64,000 nt of DNA from an uncultured Bryobacterales bacterium. Its GTDB lineage: Bacteria; Acidobacteriota; Terriglobia; Bryobacterales; UBA6623. The translations under genes were made by a program, and so were the position numbers. The stretch spans positions 3,486,435-3,550,434 of the forward strand of contig OY282420.1 in NCBI GenBank assembly GCA_958295955.1. Reading direction: 5' to 3'. This document shows, one piece after another, positions 7,583 through 58,896 of this stretch (its first letter is position 1; each line of letters opens with the position of its first letter). The notes beneath the pieces were generated by a model, which saw only the letters and a program-made list of their open reading frames with translations, searched no databases and was not told the origin of the DNA.

Positions 7583-8746
7583 TCACGCCTCCGCGTATGC
7601 CGGCGAGAGCGCGCGCAGGCGCTGCGTCACTTCGGTCAAGGCTGCTATAAGCGCGTCGATTTGCCCGTCGTCGGTTTGTCTGCCCAGGGAAAACCGCAGC
7701 GTGGATTTCGCCTGGTTGCGGTCGAGGCCGGCGGCGATGAGCACGTGAGACGGCTCGACGGCGCCGCTCGAACAAGCCGCGCCGCTGGAAACTGCGCAGC
7801 CGCGCAGGTCGAGCGCAATCAGCAGCGCCTCGCCCTCGACATGATCGAATCGAATGCTGGACGTATTGGGCACGCGCGGCGCGCCCCGGCCGTTCACCCG
7901 GCACTGGTCGATGCGCGCCGATACCTCCGCTTCCAGCCGGTCGCGCAGGGCCGCCAGCCGCGCGCCCTCGGCCTCAAGATTGCTTGCGGCCAAGGCGGCC
8001 GCCGCGCCCAGCCCGACGATGCCCGGCACGTTTTCGGTTCCCGGCCGGCGGCCGCGCTCGTGGCGCCCCCCGTACTGCACGTTCTCCAGTTGCAGCCCCC
8101 TGCGGACGTAAAGCGCGCCGACGCCCTTGGGGCCGTAAAACTTGTGGGCGCTCAAACTGAAAAAATCGACGCCGAGCTCGCGGACGCGGGTCGGAATCTT
8201 GCCGCAACTCTGCACGCCGTCCGTGTGGAAGAGGACTCCGGCTTCATGGGCAATCCTGCCGATCTCGGCCAGCGGCTGAATCGTCCCCAATTCGTTGTTG
8301 GCGTGCATCACCGAAATCAGGATCGTGTCGGGCCGCAGCGCCGCCCTCACGTCGCCGGGCGCAACCAGGCCGTCCGCGTCCACCGGCAGATAAGTGACCG
8401 CCGCGCCTTCGCGCTCCAATTGCTCGCAGGCATTGAGCACCGCCGGATGCTCGATGCGGGTCGTGATCACGTGGCGCCCGCGGCCGCGAACCGCGCGCGC
8501 CGTGCCGAAAATCGCCAGGTTGTCGGCTTCGGTGCCGCCGCTGGTAAAAACGATATCTTTCGCCGCGCAATCCAGCAGCGCGGCCGTCTGTCGCCGCGCG
8601 CGGTCGACGCCCAGCCGCGCCTCCTGCCCGAAGCCGTGAATGCTGGACGCGTTGCCGTGTACGTCCCGCAAATAGGGCAGCATCGCCTCCAGCACTTGCG
8701 GCGCAACGGGAGTCGTGGCGTTGTGATCGAAATAGTGCCGCTGCAT
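7583..8746 (-). CDS. iscS: Cysteine desulfurase (NifS/IscS family)
   Basis: 387-residue PLP enzyme that takes sulfur from cysteine as a persulfide for Fe-S clusters and tRNA thiolation. Visible landmarks are YFDHNATTP at the start, [10 protein letters not shown] near residue 70, the PLP lysine in [16 protein letters not shown] near residue 200 and the persulfide cysteine in SSGAACSSG near residue 325. Length and order match the NifS/IscS class I group. A TATACT hexamer lies about 21 nt before the start. An A-type carrier gene is 11 kb away at 19549; no iscU or iscR is adjacent, so the assembly genes are dispersed. Confidence 0.92.
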
Positions 8747-50604: not shown

Positions 50605-50870
50605 TGTACGCAGCCGGTTGGAATGGGACGGTTGGCCGCTTGGTTTGCGACGGAAGGAATCATGCTTGGCTTGCGCCGGCGCCCGCTCGCTGATCGCTAA
50701 TCCATCGACAAGCGCTTCGATTGCGGCGTCAAGCTCCCTGCCGCCCTCCAGGTAGGGTTTCCATGCCGCCTCGAGGACATCGAGATGATCGTGCCGGGCG
50801 CGCTCCCACAGGCCATGGCTCGAGGCATACGGCGTGTAGCCGGGGATGCGCCGCCGAACGATCTCGCCCG
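50605..50870. repeat. Left copy of the 266-bp direct repeat
   Basis: Nearly identical to 58066-58333: I count three single-base differences plus one short cluster with a 2-base length change. It contains the last 170 or so bases of the HExxH-type gene (read on the minus strand GEIVRRRIPGYTPYASSHGL) and downstream sequence. Its right edge joins truncated ffh, its left edge joins unrelated sequence. Confidence 0.9.
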
Positions 50871-51358
50871 CGGCGCCGTCGTAGATCGGCTGCCCGATCT
50901 GCCCCGCGACGATCTTGAGTTGGTCCCGCGCCGCGGGCCGGTAAACGTCCACCGAAACCAGCAGCGGCTTATGCCCGTGCTGCGACAGCCAGAGCGCCGG
51001 CTTGCCGGCGGACGTCGTCTTGCCGGAACCCTGCAGGCCGACGATCATGTAAACCGTTGGCGGCGTGGAGCAGTAGCGCACCTTCGACTCGGTTGAGCCG
51101 AGGATCGCCGTCAACTCGTCTTTGACGATCTTGACGACCTGCTCCGTGGGCGAAAGCGCGGTCAAAACTTCCGCGCCCAGTGACTTTTCGCGGATGTTGG
51201 CGATGAGCCGCTTGACGACCTTGAAATGGACGTCGGCTTCCAGCAGGGCGAGCCGGATTGCCTTGAGAGCATCGTCCGATGTTCTCTTCAGTCAGTTTGC
51301 CTTGGCCGCGCAGGTTCTTGAACGTGCGCTGAAGCTTCTCGGATAAGTTATCGAACAT
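50871..51358 (-). pseudogene. ffh: Truncated, frameshifted ffh (signal-recognition particle GTPase)
   Basis: The minus strand begins MFDNLSEKLQRTFKNLRGQG, the normal Ffh start. One extra base near 51277 shifts the frame after LTEENI; the sequence then continues correctly through ALLEADVHFKVVKRLIANI to the P-loop IVGLQGSGKTTSAGK and SVDVYRPAARDQL. After GQPIYDG it stops being Ffh and runs in frame into the direct repeat, giving a chimeric tail up to 50590. The rest of the G domain and the M domain are missing. Since Ffh is essential, an intact copy must exist elsewhere. A TAGAAT hexamer at 51478-51483 may be the old promoter. Confidence 0.88.
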
Positions 51359-51680
51359 CGGAATACCGCCGCCCGGTCCGCGCGCAAGTCTTACAGCCCC
51401 TCGGGTCGGATCGCCCCCGCCGCAACACCCCGCCGGACGTCGGAGGCACCCGCCCGCCGTGAGAACATTGTCTTTTTATTCTAGGGGTAGCTGGCCCGTT
51501 GCGCAACTCTCGGACCGGTCGTCTGGATGCACTGTCCAATGAGAAGTGAGCCTGAGGCAATGGTGGGGGCGAGAAAATCACCAGAGAATGATTTTGCGTA
51601 TGGAACCGGACTCGCACAAGACCCTGGAACAGGCCCGATGATTTCTGGAAGGCGGCTACGCAAAACGTATTTGTGACGCT
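51359..51680. other. Intergenic region between ffh remnant and ankyrin gene
   Basis: More than 300 bp without a supportable gene. The left part (to about 51475) is GC-rich like the host; the right part (from about 51475) is markedly lower in GC and runs into the ankyrin gene, so a composition break lies near 51470-51490. I looked for an SRP RNA here and saw no GGAAG-type tetraloop core. Confidence 0.5.
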
Positions 51681-51686
51681 TATATT
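51681..51686 (+). promoter_or_regulatory. -10 element of the large ankyrin gene
   Basis: TATATT ends 7 nt before the GTG at 51694. The surrounding GACGCTTATA sequence resembles the region before the second ankyrin gene. Confidence 0.4.
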
Positions 51687-51693
51687 TAAGGGA

Positions 51694-54600
51694 GTGTCGG
51701 CACCGCGAGCGATAACGACAACCGCCCTAGCCTCCGGTTGCGCGGAGTGGAACTCAAAGAAGTACTTCCAGGAGGCGTCGGGAAAAAATGTAACCGCCTG
51801 TCTGCAGTCGGGCGCGGATCCCAACGCGCGGGATGAGCATAGCTACACACCCTTGCATTATGCGGCCTGGCTCAACGAGCACCCCGCCGTTATCGATGCA
51901 CTCGCAGCCGCTGGCGCGGACATCGAGGCGCAGGACAATATCGGCAGGACGCCTCTGCATGGTGCGGCTGAATCCAACGAGAATCCTGCCATCATTGGTG
52001 CGCTCGTGGCCGCTGGTGCGGACATTGAGGCGCAGGACAAATATTATAACCATACCCCCCTGCATCTTGCGGCTGAATCCAATGAGAATCCAGCCGTTAT
52101 TACGGCGCTCGCGGCCGCCGGCGCAGACCTTGAGGCGCAGGACAAGAATGGCCGAACATCCCTGCATCTTGCGGCTGCATCCAATGAAAATCCAGCCGTT
52201 GTCACGGTGCTTGCGGCCGCCGGCGCGGACCTTGAGGCGCGGGACAAGTATTATAGCCGTACCCCCCTGCATCTTGCGGCTGAGTTCAATAAGAATCCAG
52301 CCGTTATCACGGCGTTCGCTGCCGCTGGAGCGAACCTTGATGTGCGGGACAAACTTGACTGGACCCCACTGCATGCTGCGACCGCATGGAGAAAGCGTTA
52401 CGCCGTCATCGGTGCGCTCGCGGCCGCCGGTGCGGACCTTGAGGCGCGGGACAAGTATCATAGCCGTACCCCCCTGCATCTTGCGGCCGGATTGAACGGG
52501 AACCCTGCCGTCATCACGGCGCTCGCGGTCGTCGGTGCGGACCTTGAGGCGCGGGACAAGTATGGCGTAACCCCCCTGCATGGTGCGGCTGAATCCAACG
52601 AGAATCCTGCCATCATTGGTGCGCTCGTGGATGCTGGCGCGAATCCCAACGCACGGGGTAAGTATGGCTGGACTCCCTTGCACCTTGCAGCTCGATTGAA
52701 CGAGAGTCTTGCTGTCATCGGTGCGCTCCTGGATGCCGGCGCTGATCCCAAGGTGTGGGACGAAGTCTGCAAGACCCCTTGGGACTACGCCAAGGACAGA
52801 GAGCCGCTCAAGGGATCAGATACTTACCGGCGGTTGATGGTGCCGCCGCGAACGATGGCGACGACCACGACCAAGAAAATTAAAATCTGGTGGCGGAACA
52901 TGTTGATGGCCCCGCTGCGAACGATATCGAAGAGCACACTTGCCGCCGATTACGCGGATTGGAACTCGGAGAAGTACTTCCGGGCGGCTACGTTAAAGGA
53001 TGTGGACGCCTGCCTGCAGTCGGGCGCGGACCCCAAGGCTCCGGACGGGAATGGCAAGGCCCCCCTGCATTTTGCGGCCGTATTCAACGAGAACCCCGCT
53101 GTCATCAAAGTGCTCGCGGCCGCTGGCGCAGATCCTAATGCGCGGGACGGGGATGGCAAGACGCCGCTGCATCTTGCGGCTGCATCCAATAAGAACCCCT
53201 CTGTCATCGTTGCACTCGCGACCGCCGGAGCAGACTCCAATGCGCGGGACAAGTATGGTCAAACGTCGCTGCATCATGCGGCTGAATCCAACGATTACCC
53301 CGCCGTTATCATGACTCTCCTGGATGCCGGAGCGGACCTCGAAGCGCGGGACAAGTACGGCTGGACGCCGCTGCATCTTGCGGTTGAATCCAATGATTAC
53401 CCTGCCGTTATCGGCGTGCTCGCTGCCGCTGGAGCGGACCTCAAGGCGGAGAGGTATTATGGCTGGACGCCACTGCACCGTGCGGCCGGGTCGAATGAGA
53501 ACCCCGCTACCATAAGAGTGCTCACGGCCGCTGGCGCGAACCCCAAGGCGCAGACCGCGGGTGGTGTGACCCCTCTGCATCATGCGGCTGAATCCAGCAA
53601 AACCCCCGCCGTCATCGTAGCGCTCCTGGATGCCGGAGGGGACATCGAGGCGCGGGACGAGACCGGCTGCACGCCCCTGCATCGAGCGGCTCAGTACAAT
53701 GAAAACCCCACCGTGGTCGCGGCACTCCTGAAGGCTGGCGCAAACACCGCAGCACGGGATGAGACCGGCGAGACGCCGTTGCATTGTGCGGCTCGGTCCA
53801 ATGAAAACCCCGCGGTGGTCACGGCACTCCTGGGGGCCGGCGCAAACACCGCAGCACGGGATGAGACCGGCGAGACGCCGTTGCATTGTGCGGCTCAGTC
53901 CAATGAAAACCCCGCGGTGGTCACGGCACTCCTGGGGGCGGGAGCGAAAATCGAGGCGCGGGACGAATATGGCAGGACTCCCCTGCATCTTGCGGCTGGA
54001 TCCAACGAGACTTCTGCCGTGGTTGCGGTGCTACTGGGTGCGGGCGTGAACCTTGAGGCGCGGGATATGTTTGGCTGGACTCCTCTACATTATGCGGCTG
54101 CATCCAATAAGAACCCCTCCGTAACTGTCGCTCTCCTGGATGCCGGTGCGAATCCTAAGGCGCGGGATGAGACTGATAAGACGCCCTGGGACGTCGCCAA
54201 ACGCAACGAACTGCTCAAGGGATCGGACGCCTACCAGCGGTTGATGACGCCGTCGCGAACAAAAGAGACGACAGCCCTTGCCGCTGACTGCACGGACTGG
54301 AATTCGAAGGAGTATTTCCAGGCTGCGACGGTCGAGGATGTGGCTAACCGCATTGCGTCTGGGGCGGACATCGAGGCAAGGGGCAAGCATGGCTGGACTC
54401 CCCTGCATTTTACGGCTAGGTTCAACGAGAATCCCGCCGTCACCGCGACGCTTCTGGCTGCTGGCGCAAACACTGAGGCGCGGGACGAATATGGCGAAAC
54501 ACCCCTGTATTGGGCTGCTCAGTCCACAGAGAACCCCGCCGTGATTATGACGCTCCTGGATGCGGGCGCGGACATCGAGACGCGGGACGAGCTTGGCCGA

Positions 54601-55365
54601 ATGCCACTGCATTTTGCGGCTAGGTTCAATGAGAACTCCGATGTGACTGTGGCGCTCCTGGATGCCGGAGCGAACATTGCGGCGCGGGATGAACTTGGCC
54701 GGACGCCCCTGCATTGGGCTGCTCAGTCCAACGAGAGCCCCGCTGTGGTCACGGCGCTTCTGGATACTGGCGCAGACATTGAGGCGCGGGACGAACTTGG
54801 CCGGACGTCCCTGCATTGGGCTGCTCAGTCCAACGAGAACCCCGCTGTGGTCACGGCGCTTCTGGATACTGGCGCAGACATTGAGGCGCGGGACGAACTT
54901 GGCCGAACACCTCTGCATTATGCGGCTAGGTTTAACAATCTTGGCTGGAACCCCCTGCGTCCGATGGGTAGGCACACCGATGATTCCGCTGTGGCCGCGC
55001 TCCTGGATGTGGGCGCGAACATTGCAACACGGGACGACATGGGCAAGACGCCCCTGCATTGGGCTGCTCAGTCCAACGAGAATCCTGTCGTCGTCAAGGC
55101 GCTCCTGGATGCAGGCGCGGACACCGACGCACGGACCAAGATTGGCGGCATGCTCCCCCTACACCTTGCGGCTGGATACAGCACGAACTCCGCCGTGGTT
55201 GCCGCGCTCGTGGATGTCGGAGCGGATCCCAAGGCGCGGGATGGGGCCGGCAAGATACCCTGGGACTACGCCAAGGATAGAGATATCCTCATAGAGACTT
55301 TTCAATATCATGAGTTTAGAGAATACTTAACCGGGGCTACGCCAAAGACAGAGAACTGCCCATGA
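51694..55365 (+). CDS. Giant ankyrin-repeat protein of three fused modules
   Basis: 1223 residues from the GTG at 51694; an in-frame GTG at 51673 is possible. It has roughly 28-30 ankyrin repeats with a 34-residue period (102 bp) of the type GxTPLHxAAxSNENPAVVxALLxAGADIEARD. Three modules are clear: 51694 to about 52840, about 52900-54245 and 54260-55365. Each module opens with a phrase like AADYADWNSEKYFRAATLKD and the first two end with WDYAKDREPLKGSD or a variant, the same capping phrases as the stand-alone gene at 55501. It looks like fused tandem genes. Ankyrin arrays bind proteins, and in host-associated bacteria they can act on eukaryotic targets. No clear signal peptide; a short Cys-containing N-terminus (ALASGC) leaves lipidation possible. 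Confidence 0.92.
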   Translation: MSAPRAITTTALASGCAEWNSKKYFQEASGKNVTACLQSGADPNARDEHSYTPLHYAAWLNEHPAVIDALAAAGADIEAQDNIGRTPLHGAAESNENPAIIGALVAAGADIEAQDKYYNHTPLHLAAESNENPAVITALAAAGADLEAQDKNGRTSLHLAAASNENPAVVTVLAAAGADLEARDKYYSRTPLHLAAEFNKNPAVITAFAAAGANLDVRDKLDWTPLHAATAWRKRYAVIGALAAAGADLEARDKYHSRTPLHLAAGLNGNPAVITALAVVGADLEARDKYGVTPLHGAAESNENPAIIGALVDAGANPNARGKYGWTPLHLAARLNESLAVIGALLDAGADPKVWDEVCKTPWDYAKDREPLKGSDTYRRLMVPPRTMATTTTKKIKIWWRNMLMAPLRTISKSTLAADYADWNSEKYFRAATLKDVDACLQSGADPKAPDGNGKAPLHFAAVFNENPAVIKVLAAAGADPNARDGDGKTPLHLAAASNKNPSVIVALATAGADSNARDKYGQTSLHHAAESNDYPAVIMTLLDAGADLEARDKYGWTPLHLAVESNDYPAVIGVLAAAGADLKAERYYGWTPLHRAAGSNENPATIRVLTAAGANPKAQTAGGVTPLHHAAESSKTPAVIVALLDAGGDIEARDETGCTPLHRAAQYNENPTVVAALLKAGANTAARDETGETPLHCAARSNENPAVVTALLGAGANTAARDETGETPLHCAAQSNENPAVVTALLGAGAKIEARDEYGRTPLHLAAGSNETSAVVAVLLGAGVNLEARDMFGWTPLHYAAASNKNPSVTVALLDAGANPKARDETDKTPWDVAKRNELLKGSDAYQRLMTPSRTKETTALAADCTDWNSKEYFQAATVEDVANRIASGADIEARGKHGWTPLHFTARFNENPAVTATLLAAGANTEARDEYGETPLYWAAQSTENPAVIMTLLDAGADIETRDELGRMPLHFAARFNENSDVTVALLDAGANIAARDELGRTPLHWAAQSNESPAVVTALLDTGADIEARDELGRTSLHWAAQSNENPAVVTALLDTGADIEARDELGRTPLHYAARFNNLGWNPLRPMGRHTDDSAVAALLDVGANIATRDDMGKTPLHWAAQSNENPVVVKALLDAGADTDARTKIGGMLPLHLAAGYSTNSAVVAALVDVGADPKARDGAGKIPWDYAKDRDILIETFQYHEFREYLTGATPKTENCP
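53761..53964 (+). repeat. Two near-identical 102-bp ankyrin units
   Basis: Consecutive units 53761-53862 and 53863-53964, each starting GAGACCGGCGAGACGCC, differ at only a few positions, pointing to recent duplication inside the gene. Confidence 0.85.
54691..54894 (+). repeat. Two near-identical 102-bp ankyrin units
   Basis: Units 54691-54792 and 54793-54894, each starting GAACTTGGCCGGACG, differ at two bases by my count, one of them changing Ser to Asn in the helix-turn. Confidence 0.9.
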
Positions 55366-55486
55366 AACTTAGGGACTATTAGAGGTGTGGACGGGATCTA
55401 ATGTGGTTTTCAGCTTGCGCAGGAGCTTTGGGCTTCATCTAGTAAACGCCGCCCGCGCAAGACGTTTTGTCACGCTTATACTGAAT

Positions 55487-55492
55487 TATACT
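55487..55492 (+). promoter_or_regulatory. -10 element of the second ankyrin gene
   Basis: TATACT ends 8 nt before the ATG at 55501; a second TATACT lies at 55477-55482. AGGGG immediately before the start could also act as a weak ribosome-binding site. Confidence 0.45.
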
Positions 55493-55500
55493 TAGGGGCG

Positions 55501-56607
55501 ATGGTAACACGAACGATAACGACGACCGCCGTTACAATCCTGGCGCTCGGCGGATGCATCGTCCCGGGTTTGACGGATGTCGCTGACTGCACGGACTGGA
55601 ACGCGGAAGAGTACTTCCGAGAGGCGACGGTAAAGGATGTAGCCGACTGCCTCCGGTCGGGCGCAAACCCCAACGCGCGGGATGAGGATGGCTTGGCTCC
55701 TCTGCATTATACGGCTCAATCCGACGAGAATCCCGCCGTCATCATGGCGCTCCTGGACGCCGGGGCGGAACTCGAAGCGCGGGACAGGAATGGCAGGGCT
55801 CCCCTGCATGTTGCGGCTCGATTCAACGAGAATCCCGCAGTCATCACGGCACTCCTGGACGCCGGGGCGGACCTCGAAGCGCGGGACGAGTATGACGACA
55901 CTAAAGCGCGGGACGAGTATGGCGACACTAAAGCGCGATCCGCAGCGATTCTGGAGTATTTTAGAAAAAAGAGAAAAAAGATAGCGGACCTCGAAGCGCG
56001 GGACGAGTATGGCGACACTCCCCTGCATGATGCGGCTCGATTCAACGCGAATCCTGCCGTCATCACGGCGCTCCTGGACGCCGGGGCGGACCTCGAAGCA
56101 CGGGACGAGTATGGCAGGACTCCCCTGCATGGTGCGGCTCTAGCCAACGAGAATCCCGCAGTCATCACGGCACTCTTGGACGCCGGGGCGGACCTTGAAG
56201 CACGGGACAAATATGGCAGGACTCCCCTGCATGTTGCGGCTCAATCCGACGAGAATCCCGCAGTCATCACGGCGCTCTTGGACGCCGGGGCGGACCTCGA
56301 AGCGCGTACCGGGGATGGCGAGACTCCCCTACATGTTGCGGCTCAATACAACAAGAATCCCGCTATCATCGCTGCGCTCCTGGACGCCGGGGCGGACCTC
56401 GAAGCACGGGACAAATATGGCAGGACTCCCCTGCATGTTGCGGCTCAATCCGACGAGAATCCCGCAGTCATCACGGCGCTCCTGGACGCCGGGGCGGAAC
56501 CCAAGGCGCAGGATGGGGACGGCAAGATACCTTGGGACTACGCCAAAGACAGAGAAGCGCTCAAAGGCTCCGATGCCTACTGGCGGTTAAATGACGCGCG
56601 GTTTTGA
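55501..56607 (+). CDS. Ankyrin-repeat protein, probable lipoprotein
   Basis: 368 residues. The N-terminus (RTITTTAVTILALGGCIVPG) is a signal peptide with a lipobox-like LGGC, so it is probably lipidated. Then come TDWNAEEYFREATVKDVADC and eight ankyrin repeats of 34 residues, and finally WDYAKDREALKGSDAYWRL. A 39-residue insertion after the third repeat (ending DLEARDEYGDT) breaks the periodicity. The TGA overlaps the ATG of the nuclease-like gene as TGATG (56605-56609), so the two are translated together. Base composition is lower in GC than the flanking operons. Confidence 0.9.
   Translation: MVTRTITTTAVTILALGGCIVPGLTDVADCTDWNAEEYFREATVKDVADCLRSGANPNARDEDGLAPLHYTAQSDENPAVIMALLDAGAELEARDRNGRAPLHVAARFNENPAVITALLDAGADLEARDEYDDTKARDEYGDTKARSAAILEYFRKKRKKIADLEARDEYGDTPLHDAARFNANPAVITALLDAGADLEARDEYGRTPLHGAALANENPAVITALLDAGADLEARDKYGRTPLHVAAQSDENPAVITALLDAGADLEARTGDGETPLHVAAQYNKNPAIIAALLDAGADLEARDKYGRTPLHVAAQSDENPAVITALLDAGAEPKAQDGDGKIPWDYAKDREALKGSDAYWRLNDARF
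55876..56019 (+). repeat. 27-bp microrepeat with AT-rich insert
   Basis: The 27-bp unit beginning GAAGCGCGGGACGAG occurs at 55876-55902 and again (first base A) at 55903-55929, then once more at 55993-56019 after a purine-rich stretch encoding FRKKRKK. The 117-bp addition keeps the frame and interrupts the 102-bp ankyrin period. Confidence 0.8.
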
Positions 56608-57452
56608 TGTATAGTCAGGTAGTGGCGTCCAACACCTCCGTATCCCCCGTGAGCGTCAGCAGTCTCATGCAAAAACTCGGTCCTCGAGCGCAACAAGGAA
56701 GCAATCCTCGTTGCCATTGGTTGACCCACGGCACGCGCAGGGAGGTCGCCGGCAGACTCACAGGCTTGGCGCAAGGATGGGGCACGGTGTCGGAAGAAGA
56801 CAACTGGATGCCGGACGGGTTCTGTCCACCCGAGGAAGCCAGACTGGATGAGTCACAGAAATTGGTGTCCGCGGTGGCGGACCGTGGCAAGCTGAGCAAG
56901 TGGTGGTTGGCAGTCCCTCAAAGAGCTAATACACCCAATTGGGACATTGCCAGCACCTGTACAGTTCACGGGGTCCAAGGAGGAAAGGGTCTGCTTTTGG
57001 TTGAAGCAAAAGCGCATCATAACGAGTTGAAAAACAGTGCTAAAGGCAAACAATTCCAGCCCAATAATGCTAGCCATGACTCACGCAGTAATCATCATCG
57101 AATCGGCGCGGCTATCCATGAGGCGAATACCGCGCTGACAGCGCAGACAAAACTCTGTTGGGCATTGTCGCGGGACAAGCATTATCAGATGTCCAACCGC
57201 TTTGCCTGGGCATGGAAACTGACGGAACTCGGCTACCCGGTTATTTTGGTTTACCTCGGCTTCCTTAAAGCCAATGAGATGCATGACCGGGGAACGCCTT
57301 TCGATAGCTGTGACGACTGGAAAGAGTGTGTCAAAGAACACAGCCAACCTCTGTTTCCGGTGCAAATCTGGAATCAAAAGTGGACAGTGCATGGCCGCGC
57401 TTTCGTACCGTGCATCCATTCGCTCACAATGAGTTATGATGCTCCAATATGA
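56607..57452 (+). CDS. PD-(D/E)XK nuclease-like protein coupled to ankyrin gene
   Basis: 281 residues. Its ATG overlaps the upstream stop (TGATG). Mid-protein sequence NWDIASTCTVHG followed by GLLLVEAKAHHNELKN matches the core PD-(D/E)XK pattern (Asp, then Glu-x-Lys) of restriction-like nucleases. A conserved-looking C-terminal half follows: HYQMSNRFAWAWKLTELG, VILVYLGFL and WTVHGRAFVPCIHSL. There is no signal peptide or helicase domain. Composition is lower in GC than the neighbours, suggesting transfer. DNA degradation or modification-linked defence is plausible, but activity and target are unknown; a non-nuclease member of the fold is the alternative. Confidence 0.7.
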   Translation: MYSQVVASNTSVSPVSVSSLMQKLGPRAQQGSNPRCHWLTHGTRREVAGRLTGLAQGWGTVSEEDNWMPDGFCPPEEARLDESQKLVSAVADRGKLSKWWLAVPQRANTPNWDIASTCTVHGVQGGKGLLLVEAKAHHNELKNSAKGKQFQPNNASHDSRSNHHRIGAAIHEANTALTAQTKLCWALSRDKHYQMSNRFAWAWKLTELGYPVILVYLGFLKANEMHDRGTPFDSCDDWKECVKEHSQPLFPVQIWNQKWTVHGRAFVPCIHSLTMSYDAPI

Positions 57453-57579
57453 GTGACTGCCGGCCGCTCATTGTCCGCTTTTACGCACTTGCCGTTCAGC
57501 GCGATACGATTTCCCAAGTCGTCTGTCTCGATGCGGTGGCGCCACCGAGGCGGCAAAGACGTTCCCCGTCTCGATAGCG

Positions 57580-57585
57580 TATAGT
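57580..57585 (+). promoter_or_regulatory. -10 element of the small ORF
   Basis: TATAGT ends 11 nt before the ATG at 57597. Confidence 0.4.
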
Positions 57586-57596
57586 GAACGACGTCC

Positions 57597-57809
57597 ATGA
57601 ATGATCGACAAAGGAAAGCCTTTCTCCGCGGCATGGGGAGCGTGATGGACCTCTACCCATCGGCAGAGAGTTACGAGCGGCTTATTCCGCAGGGAACGGT
57701 CGAGGAGCGCTTGAGCCAAATCTGGGGGCGCGTGGGAGACTACCTCCGCTTTGGGATCGGCGTTGTCGGTGAAGAAGCAGAGGCGAAGCGGCAAGCAGAA
57801 CGCGATTAG
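57597..57809 (+). CDS. Small hypothetical protein
   Basis: 70 residues, starting MNDRQRKAFLRGMGSVMDLY and containing GTVEERLSQIWGRVGDYLRF. The pattern (RKAF-x-G-x-GSV) is one I associate with small conserved hypothetical proteins, but I cannot name the family. No signal peptide or membrane segment. It lies 144 bp after the nuclease-like gene, same strand, with its own -10-like hexamer, and may belong to the same island. A toxin-antitoxin or regulatory role is only a possibility. Confidence 0.65.
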   Translation: MNDRQRKAFLRGMGSVMDLYPSAESYERLIPQGTVEERLSQIWGRVGDYLRFGIGVVGEEAEAKRQAERD

Positions 57810-57870
57810 CAGGCCGGCGGCGGAGCATCGGCCGCCCCCTTGTCATCGGACGGGTTACATTCAATGACGG

Positions 57871-58065
57871 TCAAGCGTCTTTGCGCAAAAAGCGGAAGTC
57901 GCAGCCCTCGTGCGCTTGCGTCACCTGCTCGAGGAACAGCTTACCGTAACCGCGGAGGTAGCGGGGCGGCCGGGGCGGCGCGGCTTCGATGCGCCGCTTG
58001 ATCGCGTTCTCTTCGACCCGCAAGTCGATGCGGCGCTCGGGTACGTTCAACTCGATTTCGTCGCC
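57871..58065 (-). pseudogene. C-terminal remnant of an IlvD/Edd family dehydratase
   Basis: Read on the minus strand, TGDEIELNVPERRIDLRVEE is followed by RYLRGYGKLFLEQVTQAHEG and CDFRFL, the characteristic end of dihydroxy-acid dehydratases and relatives. About 62 codons remain and end in a normal TGA at 57871. Similarity starts exactly at the edge of the direct repeat (near 58066), so everything upstream has been lost or replaced. No start codon or other ilvD part is present in the window. Confidence 0.8.
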
Positions 58066-58896
58066 TGTACGCAGCCGGTTGGAATGGGACGGTTGGCCAC
58101 TTGGTTTGCGACGGAAGGAATCATGCTTGGCTTGCGCCGGCGCCCGCGCGCCTCGACCGCTAATCCGTCGACAAGCGCTTCGATTGCGGCGTCAAGCTCC
58201 CTGCCGCCCTCCAGGTAGGGTTTCCATGCCGCCTCGAGGACATCGAGATGATCGGGCCGGGCGCGCTCCCACAGGCCATGGCTCGAGGCATACGGCGTGT
58301 AGCCGGGGATGCGCCGCCGAACGATCTCGCCCGTCGAGTAGAAGAGGACGGCATGCCACAGGGTTTTTCGGGGGAGCAGTCTTCCCGGAGAGCGCGCCCG
58401 CGCGCTGATCGCTCCGCGGATTGTCCCGATGAGGGCGTGGGAAGCCTCGTGAAAAAGCGTTTCCAGACCTTCTGCCGCAGGCTGGTCGGGGGCGCTGCCG
58501 GCGATTGTGATCCGCGTCGGGTACAGCGTTGCGTACGCGCCGGCCCAATTGGCGTGAAAGACGACGTCGGTGCGAATCGCGCGTTCGGGCCATGCGGTTG
58601 CGTAAACGGATGAAAGCCGCTCCCTCAGAAATTCCTCGTGCTCGGTTATGAGCGGGCGCAGTCGGCGTATCCAGGCGCGGTTGCTCGGATCGTGCTCCCG
58701 CCGCCGGCTCAAGCGCTTGCCGGCAGAGGAAGTGGTGCGGATTGACCCGGAACCCGCTTTGAAAGCGAAAGGTCGTTTGCCCTTTCGCTTGACCGCGCAA
58801 GACGGCCGGGAGGAGCAACCACGCCGCAAGAGCCAGCCAACGATGTTTGCTCGCCGTGTGCGGGTTCCGATTATTCTTGCGTTTGTTTTTGGGCAA
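58047..58896 (-). pseudogene. Frameshifted exported HExxH-type protein
   Basis: The minus strand starts at 58896 with a signal-peptide-like N-terminus (LALAAWLLLPAVLRGQ) and FRFQSGFRVNPHHFLCRQAL. Near 58710 the frame is broken by one apparent extra base; the other frame then continues REHDPSNRAWIRRL, LITEHEEFLRERL, the metalloprotease-like LFHEASHALIGTI, LWHAVLFYSTGEIVRRR and GYTPYASSHGLWERA. HEASH fits HExxH and the later WHAVLFYSTGE may bring further ligands. Repaired, it would be about 280 residues. It lies 14 bp downstream of a sulfatase, same strand. The last residues run into repeat-derived sequence, so the original C-terminus is uncertain. A sequencing error cannot be excluded. Confidence 0.75.
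58066..58333. repeat. Right copy of the 266-bp direct repeat
   Basis: Near-identical to 50605-50870. On its right it continues naturally into the HExxH-type gene, so this is probably the parental copy; on its left it abuts the dehydratase remnant. Confidence 0.9.

Follow-up and report, generated by a model that had tools for sequence, protein, structure and literature searches.

A predicted PD-(D/E)XK-like protein encoded beside an ankyrin gene, and the likely link of its family to type I restriction operons

In the stretch of DNA analyzed here (64,000 nucleotides, hereafter the window), a gene for an ankyrin-repeat putative lipoprotein is followed directly on the same strand by a gene for a nuclease-like protein, called gene X herein (Table 1). 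The initial annotation read the two as a candidate two-gene system of the kind seen among defense or effector loci. This arrangement raises the question of whether the ankyrin protein and X are true partners, or whether the relatives of X in other genomes point to a different biological setting.

Table 1. Features of the island and its surroundings (window coordinates)
Feature	Coordinates	Strand	Evidence or remark
Left copy of ~266-bp direct repeat	50605..50870		Bounds island; includes the 3′ portion of the gene at 58047-58829
Large ankyrin-repeat protein, 1230 aa, paralogue of the 368-aa protein	51673..55365	+	Pfam Ank, 28 stretches; DNA repeats D1-D4
Ankyrin-repeat putative lipoprotein, 368 aa, last of tandem ankyrin cluster	55501..56607	+	Pfam Ank 1.8e-48
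Gene X, PD-(D/E)XK-like protein (predicted), undescribed defense-associated family	56607..57452	+	Homologues, conserved motifs, AlphaFold model
Small ORF, 70 aa, phage/mobile-element type accessory domain	57597..57809	+	PHROGs 22381 and 26284
Right copy of ~266-bp direct repeat	58066..58333		Inside intact 58047-58829 (-) gene

Gene X and its likely start site

Because homologues with 42-58% identity are present in other genomes, X is a real gene rather than a chance open reading frame. Both open reading frames are present as annotated, and the sequence TGATG is indeed common to the stop codon of the ankyrin gene (TGA, 56605-56607) and an ATG of gene X (56607-56609), from which the X reading frame spans 281 amino acids. 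It had been concluded from this overlap that the two proteins are made together. The overlap exists, but the X start at this position is not conserved. No aligned homologue has residues that correspond to positions 1-14, the first 14-20 residues are not conserved, and conservation begins at about KLG (residues 23-25). For this reason the TGATG start is doubtful, and the overlapping ATG is probably not the real start of X. Judged from the alignment, likelier starts are the GTG at 56649, which aligns with the start of the closest homologue, or the ATG at 56667, which is a further candidate. A clear Shine-Dalgarno sequence is found at none of these three starts. Translational coupling between the ankyrin gene and X is therefore possible but unsupported.

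The ankyrin neighbor and the surrounding island

The 368-amino-acid ankyrin protein carries seven Ank stretches (Pfam) and has a lipobox-like N-terminus (MVTRTITTTAVTILALGGC). Because of this lipobox, the protein should be exported, which would place it away from a cytoplasmic nuclease. The ankyrin family comprises multiple genes and is also found in the absence of X, both at a tRNA-Leu gene in another part of this genome and in a second genome (G006). Furthermore, none of the 25 loci bearing relatives of X has an ankyrin gene near X in the visible sequence. The only match was weak (E 0.012) and far from X, more than 800 bp was visible upstream of X in 21 of these loci, and ankyrins were readily detected by the same search in two positive controls (L060 and L063). 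Taken together, the lack of ankyrin genes at the 25 X loci, the occurrence of the ankyrin family without X, and the lipobox suggest that the pairing in the window is best regarded as a chance adjacency within the island.

The proposal that the ankyrin lipoprotein and X form a co-translated two-gene system, in which the ankyrin protein binds a target or controls the nuclease, is thus highly improbable. The shared TGATG and the common strand favor such a system, and ankyrins do occur in candidate defense systems (PADLOC PDC-M72A, 1.1e-38, although such models match ankyrin repeats generically). However, this start lies within the non-conserved extension of X, and the conserved adjacency that was to be expected of partners, and whose absence was to count against them, is missing from the sequence seen at all 25 X loci. 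The ankyrin neighbor of X looks accidental, and we judge that it is not a partner. Matches of the ankyrin proteins to PADLOC and T4SS-effector models were set aside as generic repeat matches that, where curated cut-offs exist, fall well short of them. A search of the literature on ankyrins and antiphage activity found nothing relevant.

It had also been suggested that a third small open reading frame might belong to the system. This 70-amino-acid ORF does have relatives (PHROGs, 1.1e-5; G006, 7.4e-15), which lie in L063 beside genes for DUF2335 and ankyrin proteins and in L064 beside a GTA-type holin gene, but nothing observed ties it to X in function. In G006, the relative sits by the ankyrin gene without X. 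The three genes of that locus, for an ankyrin protein, a DUF2335 protein, and the small ORF relative, lie together at L063 319-2049.

The island spans 50605-58333 between two copies of the direct repeat that are 95-98% identical. It looks rearranged, and part of it may be an assembly fault. The first ~75 bp of the repeat (50605-50683) recur at about five other chromosomal sites (G000) with 75-89% identity, in the manner of a small interspersed repeat. Just inside the left edge is an N-terminal fragment of ffh (SRP54) with a one-base frameshift (50871-51358, minus strand). This is the only ffh sequence found in the assembly, and the SRP M domain (PF02978) was not found in the genome. The lone fragment stems from faulty assembly, from a gap in the genome sequence, or from the loss of a normally essential gene. 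At the other edge, an ORF that ends at the right repeat (57871-58050, minus strand) resembles the C terminus of dihydroxy-acid dehydratase (ILV_EDD_C; the match, at E 1.1e-4, misses the cut-off) and appears as an ilvD-like tail.

Conserved motifs and predicted fold of the X family

Alignment of the X family reveals three motif blocks, PNWD, VEAKAH, and YQxxNR. The conserved residues are D113, E133-x-K135, and Y193-Q194-x-x-N197-R198 (numbered from ATG 56607), with those of catalytic type lying in the contexts PNWD113 and VE133AK135. The E, K, Q, N, and R residues are kept in all 22 aligned members and the D in 21, the sole exception being an N-terminally truncated copy (L022). The genome that carries L053 also encodes a second, divergent X-like protein (7636-8328; LVEAKSHIGEM, YANRLAH) of a wider family.

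A first structural model, made from five sequences, was fair (pLDDT 70.5), and a second AlphaFold model, made from nine sequences and covering 261 amino acids from ATG 56667, is confident (pLDDT 89.3, pTM 0.90). With residues numbered from ATG 56667, D93 adjoins strand 94-100 in the model, and strand 107-115 ends with E113/K115. The Asp thus precedes one core strand and the Glu-x-Lys ends the next, after which come a long helix and a further strand. In the model, this order of strands and helix is that of the PD-(D/E)XK fold, with the conserved Asp and (D/E)xK that define this class predicted to lie on adjacent core strands.

The best structural matches by VIA-align are BstEII (Z 6.0, rmsd 3.9, 131 aligned residues) and McrC (Z 5.3, rmsd 4.4, 128 aligned), and other top matches include EndoMS (Z 5.1), PaqCI (4.9), and HamA (3.9-4.2), with SfsA, BsmI, FokI, and BamHI likewise at or near the top. 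For both models the top matches are mostly PD-(D/E)XK enzymes, and every Z value is at most 6, within the range (Z <8) in which VIA-align cautions that a match can reflect a common arrangement. The nuclease reading therefore draws on the predominance of PD-(D/E)XK enzymes among the top matches and on the fixed motif, not on single Z values. With Foldseek, neither the PDB nor the viral structures yielded a match with E <=0.001 (E above 0.1), and sequence-profile searches of the PDB gave nothing useful. The fold prediction that had been called for as a check has thus returned a PD-(D/E)XK topology and matches dominated by nucleases, but with low Z values and no Foldseek match at this threshold. 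Conservation of D and ExK, the topology of the confident model, and the nuclease-dominated structural matches together support the assignment of X as a PD-(D/E)XK-like protein, as the initial annotation had surmised from its WD...E-A-K arrangement. X would cut foreign nucleic acid in a metal-dependent manner through Asp113 and Glu133-x-Lys135.

No family model in Pfam, NCBIfam, PADLOC, or PHROGs covers X, and searches with ten family members against Pfam and PADLOC gave nothing beyond noise. We consider the family undescribed, in that it is unmodelled in the versions of Pfam, NCBIfam, and PADLOC-DB used. McrC, HamA, Shedu, and Cap4, which are among the structural matches, resemble X in having a similar predicted core with a conserved D and ExK. 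However, they have no detectable sequence similarity to X, their Z values do not exceed 6, and they have defined partners or sensor domains.

Restriction loci that carry X and the orphan copy in the window

Several relatives of X lie within type I restriction-modification (R-M) operons. Two loci are ordered GmrSD-hsdS-X-hsdR (L087) and hsdM-GmrSD-hsdS-X-hsdR (L024), and in each of them X shares an ATGA with both flanking genes, its start codon overlapping the stop of hsdS and its own stop overlapping the start of hsdR. A third locus has the order hsdM-hsdS-X-mcrB-mcrC-hsdR (L021), and a fourth (L022) has hsdM-X-hsdR, where X is truncated and hsdS was not recognized as a separate gene. X is thus inside an hsd operon in these four loci, and in a fifth (L048) it leads into the beginning of an hsdR-like gene that breaks off, leaving an hsdR remnant. 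Five of ~18 core relatives therefore adjoin hsd genes which, by a rough estimate that assumes one or two hsdR genes per ~5000 genes, is far beyond chance.

Other relatives sit beside SIR2_2 and KAP NTPase genes (L016), beside EVE-like, HNH, and NucS_C genes (L083), by a DUF433/DUF5615 pair (L009), or a few kilobases from a Fic gene (L085). About half of the core loci have no obvious defense gene adjoining X, and no clear defense neighbor was seen in L049, L081, L082, and L023. Most relatives come from one phylum and from viral and species collections, with L009 representing another phylum. The phage collection gave no match to X, and the plasmid collection gave only one distant relative, from Azospirillum, near DUF3320 and another PD-(D/E)XK gene. 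One short contig with a phage integrase carries two closely similar X copies ~3.5 kb apart (L050, 5414-9782).

The copy in the window is not inside an hsd operon. No restriction genes lie beside it, adjacent hsdM, hsdS, and hsdR genes are not found there, and the genome's single HSDR_N match lies ~226 kb away (C1:3769462). No hsdR remnant was seen 3′ of X when 57401-58060 was translated in six frames, and no DNA methylase was recognized by eye among the ORFs at 50-64 kb of the window. In a phylogenetic tree, this copy groups with L009, L020, and L010, near a clade that holds L024, L022, and L048; support for these groupings is moderate (92/92 and 92/95), and the joining fork is left open. It is plausible that X in the window has lost a former R-M setting. 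The restriction-linked relatives make a defense role for X likely, as the initial annotation had supposed, but through a type I R-M context and not through the ankyrin pairing.

The explanation that we favor, and consider probable, is that X is a nuclease-like protein with a PD-(D/E)XK fold whose family serves as a mobile DNA-restriction accessory in or beside type I R-M operons, and that the window holds an orphan copy in a rearranged island where the adjoining ankyrin lipoprotein gene is unrelated. Family members lie repeatedly at such operons, there typically in the slot after hsdS, and some travel alone. X would supplement or back up restriction as a second nuclease, and it may take its targeting from the type I enzyme, be held in check in the manner of PrrC, or act alone.

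A stronger version, which we regard as unlikely, is that X forms an effector family of its own within type I R-M systems. It would act as a second nuclease, translated together with HsdS and HsdR from a position between them and repeatedly combined with GmrSD or McrBC, and would either be guided by HsdM/HsdS or fire upon inhibition of restriction. If true, this would mean layered type I, type IV, and X defense within one operon.

A different possibility is that X belongs, as the restriction enzyme, to a minimal type II-like system in which it is paired with a methylase, the latter having been lost from the window copy. No fold is commoner among restriction endonucleases than PD-(D/E)XK, and in one locus (L084) X is preceded at a distance of 243 bp, in the same orientation, by an N6_N4 DNA methylase gene. 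However, methylase pairing is seen in that locus only, and most members either lack their own methylase or reside in operons that already have the HsdR nuclease, making this reading very unlikely.

Genes embedded in type I loci have precedents that bear on how X might act. The prrC gene is embedded in a type IC operon (PMC3874165), darTG2 lies between hsdS and hsdR in the RptR island (PMC12255303), and the hsdS-hsdR slot is a recognized site of embedded defense genes (PMC12255303). Likewise, the rlo genes (restriction-linked orfs) are accessory genes in Campylobacter hsd loci (PMC2610378). The X family resembles PrrC of the EcoprrI operon in that a nuclease gene is embedded in a type I operon. 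However, PrrC is a nuclease that cleaves tRNA, carries an ABC ATPase, and has an R-E-H triad, whereas X is a PD-(D/E)XK-like protein of 240-280 amino acids with no ATPase. DarTG2 shares the insertion slot of X, but it consists of a toxin that ADP-ribosylates DNA and the matching antitoxin, whereas X is a single nuclease-like gene. Similarly, the described rlo products (RloC type) are ABC-ATPase tRNases, whereas X has no Pfam or PADLOC model.

These precedents raise the possibility that X acts as a guard in the manner of PrrC, as a toxic nuclease that is silenced by the type I enzyme and freed to hit host nucleic acid when a phage blocks restriction. The resemblance of its operon position to those of prrC and darTG2 is consistent with such a role, and the ATGA overlaps on both sides of X suggest co-expression with hsdS and hsdR. 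However, X lacks the ATPase of PrrC and RloC and does not show their combination of ABC ATPase and ACNase domains (no Pfam match), and solo copies such as that in the window have no adjoining restriction enzyme to silence them. We therefore consider a guard of this type quite unlikely.

A solo copy of X can mislead, as its ankyrin neighbor hinted at a system for which comparison among loci gives no support. The more interesting outcome is an unmodelled family of PD-(D/E)XK-like proteins, as predicted from the models, that is embedded in type I restriction operons. The type I R-M slot is known for back-up defense genes such as prrC and darTG2, and the X family, which recurs in it, is a testable candidate for a new embedded defense protein.
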